Source of the DNA: a virus
IMG/VR virus record: IMGVR_UViG_3300029993_000005
Location: 62,001 to 126,000 of that record
Strand: one strand, 5' to 3'
DNA length: 64,000 nucleotides
Positions 2,823 through 55,164 of this stretch are shown here, piece by piece. The stretch's first letter is position 1. Every line of letters starts with the position of its first letter. Below the pieces are notes generated by a model that ran no database searches, was not told where the DNA came from, and saw only the letters and a program-made list of their open reading frames with translations. Both the position numbers and the translations under genes were made by a program.

Positions 2823-2932
2823 TTGGTCCTCAGTTTAATGTTGGTGCGTGCGTGCTTGTTGTAATTTATCACTTTCGTTGGCTTCTTGATGCTTGTTTGG
2901 TAATTCCAGTTCACTCTTCATTCCTCAGCTTT

Positions 2933-2940
2933 TATTTACT
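2933..2940 (-). promoter_or_regulatory. AGTAAATA late-promoter-like octamer facing the leftward genes
   Basis: The minus strand reads CTAGTAAATAAAAGC, almost the same 15-mer as at 1620. It would drive the leftward cluster beginning at 2822. Confidence 0.45.
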
Positions 2941-2980
2941 AGAGTCCTCAATGTTGGGTAGCTAGGTTGGTTCTAGATCA

Positions 2981-3040
2981 AAAAGTTAATATGGAATTTC
3001 TCTATAAGATAGGTAAGTTTCCTGTTTGTATTAACTATAG
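2981..3040 (+). repeat. 60-bp direct repeat, copy 1
   Basis: The segment starts AAAAGTTAATATGG and ends TTTGTATTAACTATAG. It matches 3779-3838 at about 50 of 60 positions. Both copies carry the inverted 8-mers AGTTAATA and TATTAACT near their ends (2984-2991 and 3029-3036 here). Conservation of both arms while the middle drifts suggests that the arms are the functional part, such as a protein site or a stem. Confidence 0.8.
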
Positions 3041-3043
3041 CGT

Positions 3044-3068
3044 GTGCTGTGCTGTGCTGTGATGTGCT
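3044..3068 (+). repeat. Short tandem repeat, five GTGCT-type units
   Basis: Five consecutive 5-base units, four GTGCT and one GTGAT. Small tandem repeats of this type occur in iteron-like origins, and they also arise by slippage. No function can be assigned. Confidence 0.6.
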
Positions 3069-3116
3069 GGGGTTCCAGATTTAAGCTTAAACTCGCGTTG
3101 TTGGAACCCTGTAACC

Positions 3117-3197
3117 AAAGTCGCGTTGTTGGCAGGGGGAGTGGGTAGGCTCAGCTATCGACTCTTCTCTTCTTTTATAACGTAACAACGCGACTTT
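3117..3197. repeat. 14-bp perfect inverted repeat with a 53-bp spacer
   Basis: AAAGTCGCGTTGTT at 3117-3130 is the exact reverse complement of 3184-3197. A third partial copy, CGCGTTGTTGG, lies just upstream near 3093-3103. Three related sites in about 100 bp of non-coding DNA suggest a binding site for a phage regulator or initiator. Confidence 0.6.
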
Positions 3198-3353
3198 AGT
3201 CGAATAACAGCGGAAAAACAGCCAAAAACGCAAAAATACCCAATGATAGATTACCCTTAAACCCCAATCTATCCCCCACCCCACTCCAGCCAATAATGGA
3301 GAATAACCCCCCAAGTCTAGAGGACTATGAAGTTTAAAGTCCTTTTATAATAG

Positions 3354-3381
3354 TTGGCACCATCGTCCAAGCGTACATATT
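3354..3381 (+). promoter_or_regulatory. Possible host-like promoter (TTGGCA, 16 bp, CATATT)
   Basis: The -35-like TTGGCA at 3354-3359 sits in GTTGGCACCATCGT, the same 14-mer found in the stronger promoter at 9149. The -10 candidate is CATATT at 3376-3381, inside the left arm of the 32-bp inverted repeat. It would transcribe the hairpin-rich segment to the right. Confidence 0.4.
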
Positions 3382-3397
3382 TTTAGATCCGCCGTTT
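3366..3397 (+). repeat. 32-bp perfect inverted repeat, left arm
   Basis: The arm begins TCCAAGCGTAC and ends GCCGTTT. It is the exact reverse complement of 3858-3889. The 460-bp interior contains all the GC-rich hairpins, so the arms may bound one structural unit, such as an RNA or an inverted-repeat-flanked insertion. Confidence 0.85.
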
Positions 3398-3410
3398 CAA
3401 TTAGAGATAC

Positions 3411-3778
3411 GCGCCTACGGCGCAAAACAATTTAGAGACCTTCAAAACTAAAGTCGACTGTGGTTTTAGGGTTTAAAAAAGAAATATGCATGAAGGGGCA
3501 AAGCCCCGAATGCAATTGGCAAGCAGCGCTAGCTGCGCAGCCAATACCAAACAAAACAGAATCTAAAATGAGGTTGTTGTGGTTGTTATATATTGAGGGC
3601 TTACGCCCTCCCTGCCCAAAAATACGGATTCTCCTGCGGGGCATTCGCCCCTTGGTGAATTTCCGTATTTTGTGTTCAGGAAAACCTAAAAACCAAAACC
3701 ACAATCTACATTTTAATACATATCAGAAAATATATCGTAAAAAGCATAAAAAACACTATTAAAACAGGCCTTTAGGCC
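3411..3778 (+). other. Array of six GC-rich hairpins in AT-rich DNA (possible structured RNA or origin)
   Basis: Compact perfect stems occur at 3411-3423 (GCGCC/GGCGC, TAC loop), 3495-3507 (GGGGC/GCCCC, AAA loop), 3523-3536 (GCAGC/GCTGC, enclosed by ATTGGC/GCCAAT at 3515-3545), 3595-3610 (GAGGGC/GCCCTC), 3638-3651 (GGGGC/GCCCC, enclosed by a 10-bp stem 3619-3628/3662-3671) and 3767-3778 (GGCC/GGCC). Loops are 3-4 nt. The spacing and nesting look designed for folding as RNA or extruded DNA. No protein frame explains the conservation of both arms. Strand is given as + because the candidate promoter at 3354 faces this way. Confidence 0.6.
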
Positions 3779-3838
3779 AAAAGTTAATATGGGATTTGTC
3801 TATAGAATAGATAAAATCTCTGTTTGTATTAACTGTAG
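3779..3838 (+). repeat. 60-bp direct repeat, copy 2
   Basis: Second copy of the element at 2981-3040, with the inverted arms AGTTAATA at 3782-3789 and TATTAACT at 3827-3834. It is followed immediately by an AGTAAATA motif (3837-3844) and by the right arm of the 32-bp inverted repeat. Confidence 0.8.
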
Positions 3839-3844
3839 TAAATA
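3837..3844 (+). promoter_or_regulatory. AGTAAATA late-promoter-like octamer before the helicase gene
   Basis: This exact octamer is intergenic and lies 56 nt before the preferred helicase start at 3901. It overlaps the end of direct repeat copy 2. Confidence 0.45.
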
Positions 3845-3857
3845 TAGGGTGTAGTGA

Positions 3858-3889
3858 AAACGGCGGATCTAAAAATATGTACGCTTGGA
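3858..3889 (+). repeat. 32-bp perfect inverted repeat, right arm
   Basis: Exact reverse complement of 3366-3397. It includes an in-frame ATG (3877) of the helicase gene and ends just before that gene's GGAG ribosome site, so pairing with the left arm could affect translation of the helicase. Confidence 0.85.
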
Positions 3890-3900
3890 GAAAACAATTT

Positions 3901-5967
3901 ATGGGCACCAACACTAAAAGATTTGGACATTTGATTGAATTTGTAGACTCGCTGCCTGGCATGGGCAAGACTGAAGCAGCAATAAATTTGATGGCTGAGC
4001 ATCTTCTATCGGATGTGCCTGGGCTTCTCATCTACGTGGCACCAACGCATGAACTGCTATTGCGCGTGAAAGATGATCGATTGATTCCATTGCTGCGTCA
4101 ACGCAAAGCCACACCTCGTCAACTGGGGTCCATTCGTTCATACGACAGTAAAGTCAAATCTGATCTTTTTTTAGGATCCGTCGTTGCGTCCATACGTCGA
4201 GACATAGAAGGTGGGTACGAGGCCAAAGGTAATGTAAAAATAAATGCACAGGTGAACGGCGTGTTACTCGTCACGCATTCTGCTTTCTTTCGTTTGCCAA
4301 TGGCTTTGAAAAATAAGGAGCACGTTCAAATTATTTTTGACGAAGCTCGCAAGTGTGTGTTCGAGCCCTCAACACTACCTATGACCGACAAAGAAGAAGA
4401 GCTGTTCAATCAGTATCTTCAAGAGGACACGCTTCCTGGAACTTCAGCCTTCAAGAAAATTGTCTTCAATTCCTCAATTGAGGTCCAAGCTGAACTGAAG
4501 GCCAAGCTCGAAGTATGGAAAAAGAAACGTAAGGTCCATGCTGCAGCTTATGGGCGGTTCATATCCATGGTCGAATCTTTAGAGCTGGGGACCACTGAGG
4601 TCTACTGTTTGCGCCGCGAGTCTAAGAACCACCGCCAAACAACGTTTCAATTTTACGAAGTTCATATCCCATCCAAGATTTTTTCGGGGTGGAAACGCGT
4701 GATCGTCATGTCTGCCTTTTTAAAGAAAACTCAGTTATGGGCCATGTTTTGCCGGTCGACCTTCGTTCTTAATGGAAAGTCTCAACGTATGGGCCAGCGG
4801 AAGGACGGGGCTTGGATTCCAGTACCTGCCGGTCGAAATGACACTGCCTACTATCACCTGAAGGACATAACGCAAACCTTCATCCCAAAGTATAGACAAC
4901 GTGAACAACAGATATTGAAACGTTATGGTCAAGCAGTTATTGTTTCCTTGACTGGGACGAGCAAGACTAAAGCTACGTGGAAACATTTGATTTCCTCGAC
5001 CAAACTCAATGGTATATTTGTTAAAGATAAAGAGGCAGCTCAACACTATCAGGAATCGTTCAAAATTTTCTGCCGAAGTCATGCTAAGCAGGTATCAAAA
5101 CTAACGTCTCTCGATTTAAAACGCATCATAAATCCTACTACTGCTGGTGCAGAAACTTTGAGTGAGTTTGGGCAAGCTTTGAGAGACTGGGTTGACTCTG
5201 TGGAAAAAGTCGCAGATGCTCCGTACCTTTGGTACTTGCGCCACGGTCTTAGTGTTGCTAAACAATGGTTCACTAGTGACACAGGATTGGACCGCCCATT
5301 GTTTCTCGCCAATAAAAATCATATGTCTAAGCTTCAGCGTAGTTATCCTCAGGCCAAGCAGCGATTAGAATTTTTACCACACTCCTGCCATGGTCTGGAC
5401 AACTACAAAGACCATTGCATGGTCCTGTTTCAGGCCGCAACTAATCCTAAAAAAGAGGCTCGTGACTTTTATGAAAGCCAAATACCCTGGTATGACTACA
5501 ATCAAGATCACATCGTTGAGACGGCTATTCAGGCGGTGACCCGCACATCTATACGCGACACCACACAATCGGATCCAGTACTGATTGTTGTGCCTGATCC
5601 TTACCTGGCTGCATTGTTGAGCGAACGTCTTAATGATGCACCTATAGAATATGCCAATGAAAAATATGGTGTTCCCTCATTCAGCATTCTGTATATAACC
5701 AAACCTGATCTGACCGTTACTGAACGTGGACGTAAATTTAGAGACACTGAAAGTGGTAAGACTTCTGCACAAAAAGTTAAAGACTCGCGAGCGCTTAGTC
5801 CTTTTTGGGGCAAACTCAACAGCAAGACAGTCATGTTGTCTAAAGCTCGTAAACAATTCAAAGAGACTGGCGATGATAAGGCATTCGAGAAATGTCAAAC
5901 TCTGTTGAAAGAGCAGGAACTACTGTCTGAACAACATGCTAAATGGGTTCGAGAAAGTCAGTGGTGA
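3901..5967 (+). CDS. DEAD-like helicase/ATPase, 688 aa
   Basis: A P-loop at residues 17-25 (SLPGMGKTE) and a Walker B DEAR box at 147-150 place this among superfamily 1/2 NTPases. Later helicase motifs are not clear by eye, though an NTP-sensing type block (VSLTGTSKTK) follows near residue 345. The likely role is nucleic-acid unwinding or translocation. The start at 3901 is preferred over the in-frame ATG at 3877, because only 3901 has a spaced GGAG site and 3877 lies within the 32-bp inverted repeat. It is the first rightward gene after the control region. The exact helicase subfamily is unknown. Confidence 0.7.
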   Translation: MGTNTKRFGHLIEFVDSLPGMGKTEAAINLMAEHLLSDVPGLLIYVAPTHELLLRVKDDRLIPLLRQRKATPRQLGSIRSYDSKVKSDLFLGSVVASIRRDIEGGYEAKGNVKINAQVNGVLLVTHSAFFRLPMALKNKEHVQIIFDEARKCVFEPSTLPMTDKEEELFNQYLQEDTLPGTSAFKKIVFNSSIEVQAELKAKLEVWKKKRKVHAAAYGRFISMVESLELGTTEVYCLRRESKNHRQTTFQFYEVHIPSKIFSGWKRVIVMSAFLKKTQLWAMFCRSTFVLNGKSQRMGQRKDGAWIPVPAGRNDTAYYHLKDITQTFIPKYRQREQQILKRYGQAVIVSLTGTSKTKATWKHLISSTKLNGIFVKDKEAAQHYQESFKIFCRSHAKQVSKLTSLDLKRIINPTTAGAETLSEFGQALRDWVDSVEKVADAPYLWYLRHGLSVAKQWFTSDTGLDRPLFLANKNHMSKLQRSYPQAKQRLEFLPHSCHGLDNYKDHCMVLFQAATNPKKEARDFYESQIPWYDYNQDHIVETAIQAVTRTSIRDTTQSDPVLIVVPDPYLAALLSERLNDAPIEYANEKYGVPSFSILYITKPDLTVTERGRKFRDTESGKTSAQKVKDSRALSPFWGKLNSKTVMLSKARKQFKETGDDKAFEKCQTLLKEQELLSEQHAKWVRESQW

Positions 5968-6088: not shown

Positions 6089-7183
6089 ATGCCATACGAA
6101 GAAGAAGTTCAAGATGTAGAGTTCAAGCAAGTCCAGGATAACCAGGCAGAACAAAACACTGGCACGGGCACTGATACTGAACAAAAACTGTATCGTGTGT
6201 TCCATGTTCAAGTGGGAGGCAATCCGACTGTTGAAGCCCTGTCCCAGATTGCAACTGGCGTCAAGCACATGTTGGAGTCCAAAAGCGCTCAAGAAGTGAT
6301 GGTGTCCAATCCTGATATCTCAATCTTTGAATACGCGCTAGATACTCCGGTAGATAGTCTAATCATCAAGGGCGCTATCACTTTGGAAACCGTAGCCAAA
6401 ACCGCGTGGACAGTCAATCAAGGTTATTGTGGTTCGTTGGGTGATACATCAATCGTTGACTGGGAGCAAGCTGGTACAGATCAGCAACAGAATTATCTGA
6501 AGGCTATTAACAATAGTCTGCGATTCAACTACACGCCAGAGCAACAACACGAAGCTTGGTTGAAGTCCAAGACTGATGATGGCTGGACCTATGGATCAGT
6601 CAAAGACGAGGGGACAAAGAAACATCCGTCAATACTACCTTACGCAGCCTTACCCAAAGAAATTCAAACCAAAGACTATTTGTTCCGTAGTGTAGTCAAT
6701 GGTTTGAAATCGCAACTCCCTGTTCCTTCAGAAACTCGCGAAATTGAGATTGTCGTTGATGATAAAAACAATCCGTTCCTGCCCTGGAAATTCGCGCACC
6801 TTAAACCAGGTCTGATCTTCCGTTTCGTTGGTGCCTCTGACGAACTCGTTTATCGGGCAGTCAGTGAAGTCTATGTTGATTACTTGTCTGAGGCACCGGC
6901 TTTCACCGCCGATGTTGAGACCCTAAATTTGAGTTCAGTACTTGGGACTCTAACAGCTACCGAAGTTACTATCACTGGCACGGGCACGGACACTGGTATT
7001 GAATCCAGTAGTAAGTCGGATACTACGGTTGAGACCAAATCCCAACCCATAGTCCCCAAGTCAAAGAAAGTGGATAAGAAAATAACTGAAAAATGGACAG
7101 CACCCACTCCCAAGCCCACTCCCAAGGCTAAGACAGGTCCAAAGAAATCTGCAGAAAAGAAAGCTAAGTCCAAGTCCAAATAG
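6089..7183 (+). CDS. RyR-domain protein with a lysine-rich tail, 364 aa
   Basis: Residues about 125-206 carry the ryanodine-receptor repeat signature: HEAWLKSK, then GWTYG, then D...KKHPSILPYAALP and a following KDY. In animals RyR repeats form part of calcium channels; small RyR proteins also occur in bacteria and phages, where the ligand is unknown. An N-terminal segment (residues 33-110) and a second folded segment (210-290) flank it. The last 65 residues are Thr/Lys/Pro-rich and strongly basic, which suggests nucleic-acid contact. The gene stands alone between an AGTAAATA motif and a strong hairpin terminator, so it is probably one transcription unit and well expressed. Confidence 0.75.
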   Translation: MPYEEEVQDVEFKQVQDNQAEQNTGTGTDTEQKLYRVFHVQVGGNPTVEALSQIATGVKHMLESKSAQEVMVSNPDISIFEYALDTPVDSLIIKGAITLETVAKTAWTVNQGYCGSLGDTSIVDWEQAGTDQQQNYLKAINNSLRFNYTPEQQHEAWLKSKTDDGWTYGSVKDEGTKKHPSILPYAALPKEIQTKDYLFRSVVNGLKSQLPVPSETREIEIVVDDKNNPFLPWKFAHLKPGLIFRFVGASDELVYRAVSEVYVDYLSEAPAFTADVETLNLSSVLGTLTATEVTITGTGTDTGIESSSKSDTTVETKSQPIVPKSKKVDKKITEKWTAPTPKPTPKAKTGPKKSAEKKAKSKSK

Positions 7184-8842: not shown

Positions 8843-8870
8843 TTGGCACCAACTGCAAAATAGGTATATA
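8843..8870 (+). promoter_or_regulatory. Host-like promoter (TTGGCA, 16 bp, TATATA)
   Basis: The -35-like TTGGCA is at 8843-8848 and TATATA at 8865-8870. The -35 box lies inside the palindrome AGTTGG-CA-CCAACT, which could also be an operator. It is placed 40 nt before the 75-aa gene. Confidence 0.6.
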
Positions 8871-9140: not shown

Positions 9141-9148
9141 AATAATTG

Positions 9149-53625: not shown

Positions 53626-55164
53626 ATGGCACAACGCGGATCAGATTTCGACTCAGTTAAAACAAATTCACGTCCAGAGAAAAGTCAACCCTCGGACAAG
53701 GTTACGGTTTTCAAATTTCCACCCAAGAAGTGGATTACTTTCAGATGCGCAGGGCCTATCCACAGCTATGCAACAGGCTGGATTAAGACCAAAAAGAAGG
53801 ATGGTAAGTCAGTTAAATTTCCTGTGGTCATGCCTTCCTATGACCCTGAAACTCAACAATTCGATAGCACGATTTACGATCCTTGGTACGGTGTATGGCA
53901 GGGTCAAAAAGATGTGGACCGTGAAGACCAGTTAGTACAACTCAGCACCAAGTATTATACAAACATGATTTGCCGTTCGGTTCAAAAACAAATGCCAGGC
54001 ACTTTGGTCAAGGCGACCTCAGGCGAGCGCAAATCGGGTTTCAAGGACAAGGATAGCGACACGTGGACGCCGTGGGTTGCTGTGAGCCTTCCTGCAGGCG
54101 CAATCGCCAAGATTAAGGACCTGAAGGGTACCAACGTCGTTGAATCAGCTAAGACAGGTAATAGCAAAGCTTATTCGGTAGCTGATGCTAAGTACGGTTG
54201 TGACATCCGTATTATGTATGATCCGGATAAGAGTCCAGCCGAACAATACTCGGTTCAGACAACCAACAAGCGGACACCCATTACCGAAGAAGAGCAAGCG
54301 TTTTTACGCTGGGACACCTCGGACTTGGCAAGTCCTATGACCAAAGAAGAGACCAAGACAGAGTTCGATAACTGGTCCAAGCGTATGGGTATTAAGGTCG
54401 GTAAAAAGGCCAAACCTGAAATTGATGAAGACGAGGACATTGATTCGGATTATGAAGACGACGAACTGGACGATGAGGAGCCTGTAAGCAAGAAGAAAGT
54501 TGCTAAGAAACCAGCGTCTAAGTCCAAGAAGAAAGTTGAAGAGGACGAGGATGAAGATTTTGACGACTCTGAGTCTGAAGACTTTGACGATTCCGATTCA
54601 GACGATGATTCTGACTTTGATGACGAAGAGGAAGACGAACCTGCACCGAAAAAGAAAGTATCAGCAAAACCTGCGGCAAAGGGTAAGAAAAAAGTTGTTG
54701 AGGAAGATGATGAAGACTTCGATGACGATGATTCAGAGGCTGATGACAGCGACGAAGACGACGAGGACTTTGACGATGAACCGGCACCCAAGAAAAAAGC
54801 CCCGGCCAAAAAGCCGGTAGCCAAGGGTAAGAAGAAAGTTGAGGAAGACGAGGACGAAGACTTTGATGACGAGGACGAGTCAGATTCCGATTCAGATGAC
54901 GGTGATGACTCAGACGATGACTTTGATGATGAAGATGATGAGCCTGCACCATCACCAAAGAAGAAGGCTCCCGTCAAGAAACCTGTAGCCAAAACCACGC
55001 CACCAAAGTCAAAACGCAAACCTGTAGTTGAAGATGACGAGGATGAGGACTTTGACGATTCCGATTCAGACGATGATTCTGACTTTGATGACGAAGAGGA
55101 AGACGAGCCCGCACCCCGTCGTAAGGCACCAGCAAAACCTGTTGCTAAGAAGGTCAAGCGTTAA
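53626..55164 (+). CDS. Candidate single-stranded DNA-binding protein with repeated acidic/basic tail, 512 aa
   Basis: The N-terminal 260 residues look folded, with aromatic strands (KKWITFRCAGPIHSYATGW, DPWYGVWQG) and basic loops, as in phage SSBs. From about residue 265 onward the protein is an alternation of acidic blocks (DDSDSDDDSDFDD) and basic KKK-Pro-Ala blocks (APAKKPVAKGKKK), about four cycles, ending in basic KKVKR. Phage SSB tails are normally acidic at the very end, so the basic end is unusual. Its place before the recombinase supports the SSB call. A 59-bp segment is repeated exactly within the tail. Confidence 0.55.
   Translation: MAQRGSDFDSVKTNSRPEKSQPSDKVTVFKFPPKKWITFRCAGPIHSYATGWIKTKKKDGKSVKFPVVMPSYDPETQQFDSTIYDPWYGVWQGQKDVDREDQLVQLSTKYYTNMICRSVQKQMPGTLVKATSGERKSGFKDKDSDTWTPWVAVSLPAGAIAKIKDLKGTNVVESAKTGNSKAYSVADAKYGCDIRIMYDPDKSPAEQYSVQTTNKRTPITEEEQAFLRWDTSDLASPMTKEETKTEFDNWSKRMGIKVGKKAKPEIDEDEDIDSDYEDDELDDEEPVSKKKVAKKPASKSKKKVEEDEDEDFDDSESEDFDDSDSDDDSDFDDEEEDEPAPKKKVSAKPAAKGKKKVVEEDDEDFDDDDSEADDSDEDDEDFDDEPAPKKKAPAKKPVAKGKKKVEEDEDEDFDDEDESDSDSDDGDDSDDDFDDEDDEPAPSPKKKAPVKKPVAKTTPPKSKRKPVVEDDEDEDFDDSDSDDDSDFDDEEEDEPAPRRKAPAKPVAKKVKR
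54580..54638 (+). repeat. 59-bp exact repeat within the SSB tail, copy 1
   Basis: Identical at the DNA level to 55048-55106, 468 bp apart, although synonymous codons could vary freely. Indicates recent duplication or gene conversion of the acidic block. Confidence 0.9.
55048..55106 (+). repeat. 59-bp exact repeat within the SSB tail, copy 2
   Basis: Second copy of the 54580-54638 segment. Both encode the same acidic block (FDDSDSDDDSDFDDEEEDE). Confidence 0.9.

Follow-up and report, generated by a model that had tools for sequence, protein, structure and literature searches.

A 524-base element lying in front of an SF2 helicase gene of a jumbo phage is tentatively interpreted here as the control region of this late-type gene, in which RNA structure would act as an on/off switch for translation. 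Two arms border an array of hairpins, and the right arm coincides with the predicted 5′ leader of the helicase gene. Three related phages preserve this layout even though their sequences are mostly different, a pattern suggestive of a folding switch controlling when the helicase is produced. The arrangement was computed from the sequence; its transcription and repression are what we infer from it.

Source genome and the divergent intergenic region

The window analyzed here, a stretch of 64,000 nucleotides, corresponds to bases 62,001–126,000 of a 230,110-bp IMG/VR virus record (IMGVR_UViG_3300029993_000005). Its capsid, terminase, RecA, clamp, and helicase genes match those of Achromobacter phage Motura (61% identity for MCP and 43% for terminase), and judged by these matches the record is a Motura-like jumbo phage, a distant relative of Motura. 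A second contig, IMGVR_UViG_3300031964_000005, is 100% identical over at least 15 kb and therefore represents the same phage; its hairpin and arm region is unchanged and has the same orientation.

The preliminary description of this DNA had located the element where gene direction flips, and the strand map bears this out: the locus is the major gene-strand divergence, with 39 long ORFs running leftward and 93 rightward. It had also been called the only long non-coding region. A gene-free stretch is indeed found there, but it extends from 2823 to 3900, twice the span originally given.

2823–3900, no strand: entire divergent intergenic region, from ORF and strand maps; the leftward ORF begins at 2822 and the helicase ATG lies at 3901
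3887–3890, plus strand: Shine–Dalgarno sequence GGAG, from the sequence, with its GGA within the right arm
3901–5967, plus strand: SF2 helicase gene encoding 688 aa from the ATG at 3901, from the ORF map, homology, and predicted fold

A search for homologous elements in related phages had been proposed, and no nucleotide homologue of the intergenic region was found in phage records or in 22 relative records. The only match in an IMG/VR nucleotide search was the same phage, and a search of the literature for the motif or the region returned nothing relevant.

Arms and hairpin array

The inverted arms and GC-rich stems reported earlier are real and far beyond chance. The arms at 3366–3397 and 3858–3889 are exact (32 of 32 positions complementary, 460 nt between them) and form the longest inverted repeat within 3 kb in the record, the next longest measuring 19 bp. 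The perfection of the arms had been taken as a sign of recent duplication or of selection for pairing; perfection alone is insufficient to show a recent duplication. The six compact stems were recovered as described, except that three of them, rather than two, are nested; all stems of the array are Watson–Crick.

3366–3397, plus strand: left 32-nt arm, complementary to the helicase 5′ leader (sequence complementarity)
3411–3423, no strand: hairpin GCGCC-TAC-GGCGC (hairpin scan)
3487–3514, inner stem 3495–3507, no strand: nested hairpin TGCAT(GGGGC-AAA-GCCCC)ATGCA (fold, hairpin scan, sequence)
3516–3544, inner stem 3523–3536, no strand: nested hairpin TTGGC(GCAGC-GCTA-GCTGC)GCCAA (fold, sequence)
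3595–3610, no strand: hairpin GAGGGC-TTAC-GCCCTC (hairpin scan)
3619–3671, inner stem 3638–3651, no strand: nested hairpin with inner GGGGC-ATTC-GCCCC and an outer stem of approximately 10 bp (fold, hairpin scan)
3767–3778, no strand: hairpin GGCC-TTTA-GGCC (sequence, fold)
3858–3889, plus strand: right 32-nt arm, the predicted helicase 5′ leader, extending into the Shine–Dalgarno sequence (sequence complementarity)

Perfect hairpins with at least five G–C pairs number 22 in 230 kb, and four of them fall inside 240 bp at the element, while every 600-bp window elsewhere in the record holds at most one. In a GC-corrected folding scan with DNA parameters, windows of the element ranked 1, 2, and 4 among 2298. 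The element is thus the strongest-folding stretch of the 230-kb record. Its RNA fold was also far more stable than that of shuffled sequences, with z = −10.1 on the plus strand and −12.6 on the minus strand.

The hairpin array tops its own 6–20 kb neighborhood in the present phage and at five related loci (L020, L022, L023, L026, and L044), and the helicase locus ranks among the top 4–6 of the neighborhood in L021, L028, and Motura. The array does not stand out in L024, L045, and L046, and the Motura helicase locus takes rank 43 genome-wide in the folding scan; the array was therefore rejected as a feature common to all helicase loci. Motura has its strongest folding site elsewhere, in a short gap after a NUDIX hydrolase gene (L033 5200–5320, at 55.2–55.3 kb). 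A distant relative carries at the equivalent locus its own 24-bp perfect inverted repeat around 201 bp with GC hairpins (L026 5534–5782), and this repeat does not pair with the gene leader. Xanthomonas phages PhiXhv-15 and PhiXhv-12 (L020 5742–5767 and L043 1754–1779) differ at three of 825 bases, and two of the three differences turn the hairpin loop TAAA into TTTA, its reverse complement, a micro-inversion borne by the hairpin.

Predicted long-range pairing with the helicase leader

At 15 loci, the 60 nt immediately upstream of the helicase start were compared for complementarity with the remaining intergenic region, and dinucleotide shuffles and 243 other start sites of the present genome served as controls. 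The present phage scored 77 (z 19.8), followed by L104 with 53 (z 10.4), L023 with 37 (z 5.6), and G003 with 35 (z 4.7); the maximum among the 243 control start sites was 34. In all four arm-bearing phages, the right-hand strand of the pairing falls within the predicted leader, past GTAAATA, and the left-hand strand borders the array on its left side, with a GTAAAT-type motif between the two. The arms themselves (14–32 nt) are largely different in sequence with a common GCG core, and those of G003 contain four mismatches in 23 positions. When 11 bp of the four helices were aligned, seven pairs changed on both sides and 95.5% of the cells paired, a count that is partly circular because the arms were identified through their complementarity. 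With this limit, the covariation check proposed earlier is borne out for the outer helix, which three relatives retain despite their sequence changes. Among the remaining eleven helicase loci, eight are clearly without arms (the second Sauron copy and those of Motura, PhiXhv, and Ep032 are examples), and pairing is weak or borderline at the other three (L105, L106, and Sauron1). The overall RNA fold had z scores of −8.7 in L023 and −4.0 in L104, and in G003 it was barely above shuffles (−1.8).

A structured phage RNA was one of several options raised in the preliminary description, and it is the best supported of them, given the outer helix kept in relatives and a right arm that is the predicted helicase leader. 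ROOL and GOLLD are large structured phage RNAs of several hundred nucleotides with a closing helix and many stems. The element resembles them in all of these respects and in being phage-borne. It differs from them in that a search with Rfam 15 covariance models gave no match, either at the gathering score or at E values up to 1, and in that structure is kept without a conserved sequence core.

Promoter-like motifs and inverted-repeat boxes

Two recurrent promoter-like families meet at the locus, together with inverted-repeat boxes.

2933–2941, minus strand: late-promoter-like TAGTAAATA for the leftward genes (record position 64941, minus strand)
2981–3040, plus strand: inverted-repeat box c1 (AGTTAATA...TATTAACT), 83% identical to c2 by repeat comparison
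3089, 3117, and inverted at 3184–3200 (span 3089–3200), no strand: three copies of AAA(G/C)TCGCGTTGTT, candidate protein-binding sites, from the sequence
3347–3366, plus strand: −35 half of the early-promoter-like family (TTGGCACC at 3354–3361), by likeness to the sister copy at 9142
3779–3838, plus strand: inverted-repeat box c2, adjoining the late-promoter-like motif, a candidate operator or RNA hairpin (repeat comparison)
3836–3844, plus strand: late-promoter-like TAGTAAATA facing the helicase gene, with a predicted RNA start at approximately 3851 (genome-wide motif)

The early-promoter-like family consists of TTGGCACC followed 17–18 bases on by TATACT and adjoins gene starts on both strands; TTGGCACC occurs 37 times in the record, compared with 7.5 expected. 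Copies of the form aaaataattgTTGGCACC-N-TATACTggaatcact lie next to gene starts at 8843 and 9149 of the window and throughout the record, for example at record positions 434, 1278, 10935, and 56077 (minus strand). Promoter-like sites had been described at the left edge of the element, and a −35 half belonging to this TTGGCACC..TATACT family is present there; the family likeness is lost at the left arm, where identity between the 3354 copy and its sister at 9142 stops.

The late-promoter-like motif (C/T)TAGTAAATA, reminiscent of the T4 late promoter TATAAATA, has 32 copies genome-wide (3.3 expected), 25 of them intergenic. Such motifs differ by lineage, from TAGTAAATA in the present phage (G000) to CGTAAATA in Motura (L032–L036; 37 copies compared with 3.4 expected) and a recurring CCTGTAAATA context in Ep032 (L037–L041). 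A GTAAAT motif is found upstream of most helicase relatives. Because the late-promoter-like motif at 3836–3844 falls between the arms, the predicted 5′ leader of the helicase gene corresponds to the right arm, and the predicted late RNA, starting after the left arm, would not contain that arm.

Between boxes c1 and c2, one paired change was found over 60 bp. An analogous box is present in the equivalent intergenic region of most relatives; its arms are unrelated in sequence, its core is TATA-like, and it frequently adjoins the GTAAATA motif.

A proposed switch in the helicase leader

According to the proposed mechanism, RNA begun upstream of the left arm would fold into a long closed structure, in which the outer helix and the stacked hairpins join the arms and the ribosome site of the helicase gene is hidden. 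The GGA of the Shine–Dalgarno sequence and the leader are predicted to pair with 3366–3397. RNA from the embedded late promoter would begin past the hairpins, lack the left arm, and be translated, and the inverted-repeat box beside this promoter may serve as its operator. The helicase would thereby be off early and on late. The predicted late-start RNA (3851–3960) is unstructured (z +0.6), compared with the z of −10.1 for the longer RNA. The main weakness of this interpretation is where transcription would start. No convincing rightward promoter was found upstream of the left arm, and the sole early-promoter-like site, TTGGCACC at 3354, would start RNA at approximately 3389, inside the left arm, so that only 9 nt of the arm would be transcribed and the Shine–Dalgarno sequence would stay free.

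Phage T4 offers the closest parallel. Long transcripts of the T4 genes e, soc, 49, and I-TevI bury the ribosome site in a helix, and a late promoter situated downstream of the 5′ strand of the helix yields late RNA that is unable to do so; the late promoter of I-TevI is, in addition, overlain by an operator (PMC3014915, PMC2988022). These early-off/late-on leaders, and that of Aeh1 mobE, share with the element a helix at the ribosome-binding site and a late-type promoter past its 5′ strand. The T4 leaders are, however, local hairpins inside an upstream transcription unit; in the present case approximately 280–460 nt, occupied by a hairpin array, separate the strands, and the setting is a divergent intergenic region. 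The element may tentatively be regarded as a T4-like expression switch stretched over approximately 300–460 nt of hairpins, a variant of the known T4 leader logic.

Whether folding is stronger on one strand was considered as an indication that RNA is the acting molecule. When plus and minus strands were compared, including the small boxes and the relatives, neither was consistently preferred, and this comparison was dropped. A role at the DNA level, as a cruciform, loop, or origin, is therefore also possible.

Alternative interpretations at the DNA level

A replication origin or initiator module, also put forward in the preliminary description, is possible but unlikely. In this view, the divergence point of the two large gene blocks would combine an AT-rich core with repeated boxes for binding and with hairpins extruded from the DNA, and the neighboring SF2 helicase would serve it. 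The site does lie at the major divergence point, close to where cumulative GC skew reaches its minimum in the record, repeated inverted half-sites occur in each phage, and the stems are of the Watson–Crick kind. Helicase and hairpin region also stay linked, even in the second BcepSauron/Saruman copy, where a shared 39-bp piece is inverted relative to the gene. However, the GC3 coding-strand skew per gene block is about zero, with no leading/lagging pattern, and in neither Motura nor Ep032 is the site marked by skew; GC skew, being absent or explained by gene strand, was rejected as an origin signal. The arms, moreover, target a gene leader, which an origin does not need. Herpesvirus oriS and oriL, with UL9, combine an SF2 helicase with inverted binding boxes around an AT-rich spacer. 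The present locus shares these traits, but no similarity to UL9 or Herpes_ori_bp was found and its arms lie in a gene leader. The predicted DinG/XPD-like fold likewise argues against an origin, with no origin-binding helicase among the matches listed.

Control by a two-operator DNA loop is rather improbable. One regulator would bind both arms, one over the −10/start region of the early promoter and the other just past the late promoter, and by joining them would shut both promoters. The left arm begins in the early-promoter copy exactly where the family likeness ends, and the right arm sits just downstream of the late motif, as such a loop would have it. The arms are not palindromic, though, and vary in length among the phages around a short GCG core, and a site bound by a protein should also be found at other positions.

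Even less probable is an invertible promoter, turned left or right by recombination between the arms. Invertons have a promoter between inverted repeats, and a promoter-like motif does lie between the perfect arms of the element; among relatives, moreover, the helicase block can face either way with respect to its flanks. Against this, the tyrosine integrase (PF00589) and serine resolvase (PF00239) families were not found in the genome, both contigs show the same single orientation, the arms of G003 are mismatched (4/23), and flipping would carry the promoter away from any start codon.

A mobile inverted-repeat element had also been suggested earlier, resembling GC clusters or double-hairpin elements, to which MITEs may be added. 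This reading is very improbable: although the element has terminal inverted repeats and hairpins and its left end interrupts an early-promoter copy, it is single-copy in the genome and absent from 2.9 million viral contigs except those of the same phage, shows no evident target-site duplication or flanking direct repeat, has the predicted helicase leader as its right arm and an interior box (c2) resembling a flanking one (c1), and is matched in relatives by arms that are analogous, not homologous, at the equivalent place.

The helicase gene and its fast-evolving surroundings

The helicase is 22–24% identical to helicases of Motura, BcepSauron, Xanthomonas phage PhiXhv, and Erwinia phage Ep032. 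Its fold is predicted to be weakly DinG/XPD-like; the model has a pLDDT of 69 and a TM of approximately 0.36–0.39 to DinG/XPD, so fine claims do not rest on it. A sequence-based search of solved structures gave no significant match, and no homologues were found on plasmids or in bacterial genome contigs. Most helicase relatives have an intergenic region of 0.5–1 kb 5′ of the gene, at a strand divergence; the second Sarumanvirus copy lies away from one. BcepSauron and BcepSaruman each encode two paralogous helicases with a hairpin-bearing region upstream (L021 5786–5824 and L046 1687–1724), and the 39-bp element of BcepSauron is common to both of its upstream regions, in inverted orientation.

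Compared with the present phage, G003 has an MCP that is 91% identical and a helicase that is 43% identical, and in another relative the values are 87% and 23% (loci L098 and L024); the module thus evolves far faster than the capsid gene. The helicase and intergenic block is inverted relative to its two flanking genes, with the present phage as reference, in G003 and G021 (L023), and also in G007 (L024), as judged there by one informative flank. A phage protein with an RyR domain (PF02026) is encoded beside the helicase at 6089–7183 of the window, and its relative in G003 and G021 sits across the intergenic region, on the opposite side. Elsewhere in the window, at 54502–55115, lies a gene with Lys-rich and Asp/Glu-rich repeats in several diverged copies.

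More speculatively, and with little confidence, the SF2 helicase and its cis region may form a fast-evolving module of Motura-like jumbo phages, in which boxes, hairpins, and arms change sequence and the architecture is kept. The arm pairing might then be a new long-range switch of translation or replication that co-diversifies with the helicase, possibly preventing cross-reaction between related phages.

Gene timing in jumbo phages of the Motura-like group is poorly understood. In the region described here, one fast-changing helicase gene is preceded by a conserved long-range leader structure together with a T4-late-like motif and a member of an early-promoter family, a combination that offers a concrete, testable switch. 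Should the pairing instead act on DNA, the region would be a conserved and unusual site, prone to form cruciforms, where the gene strands of these genomes chiefly diverge.
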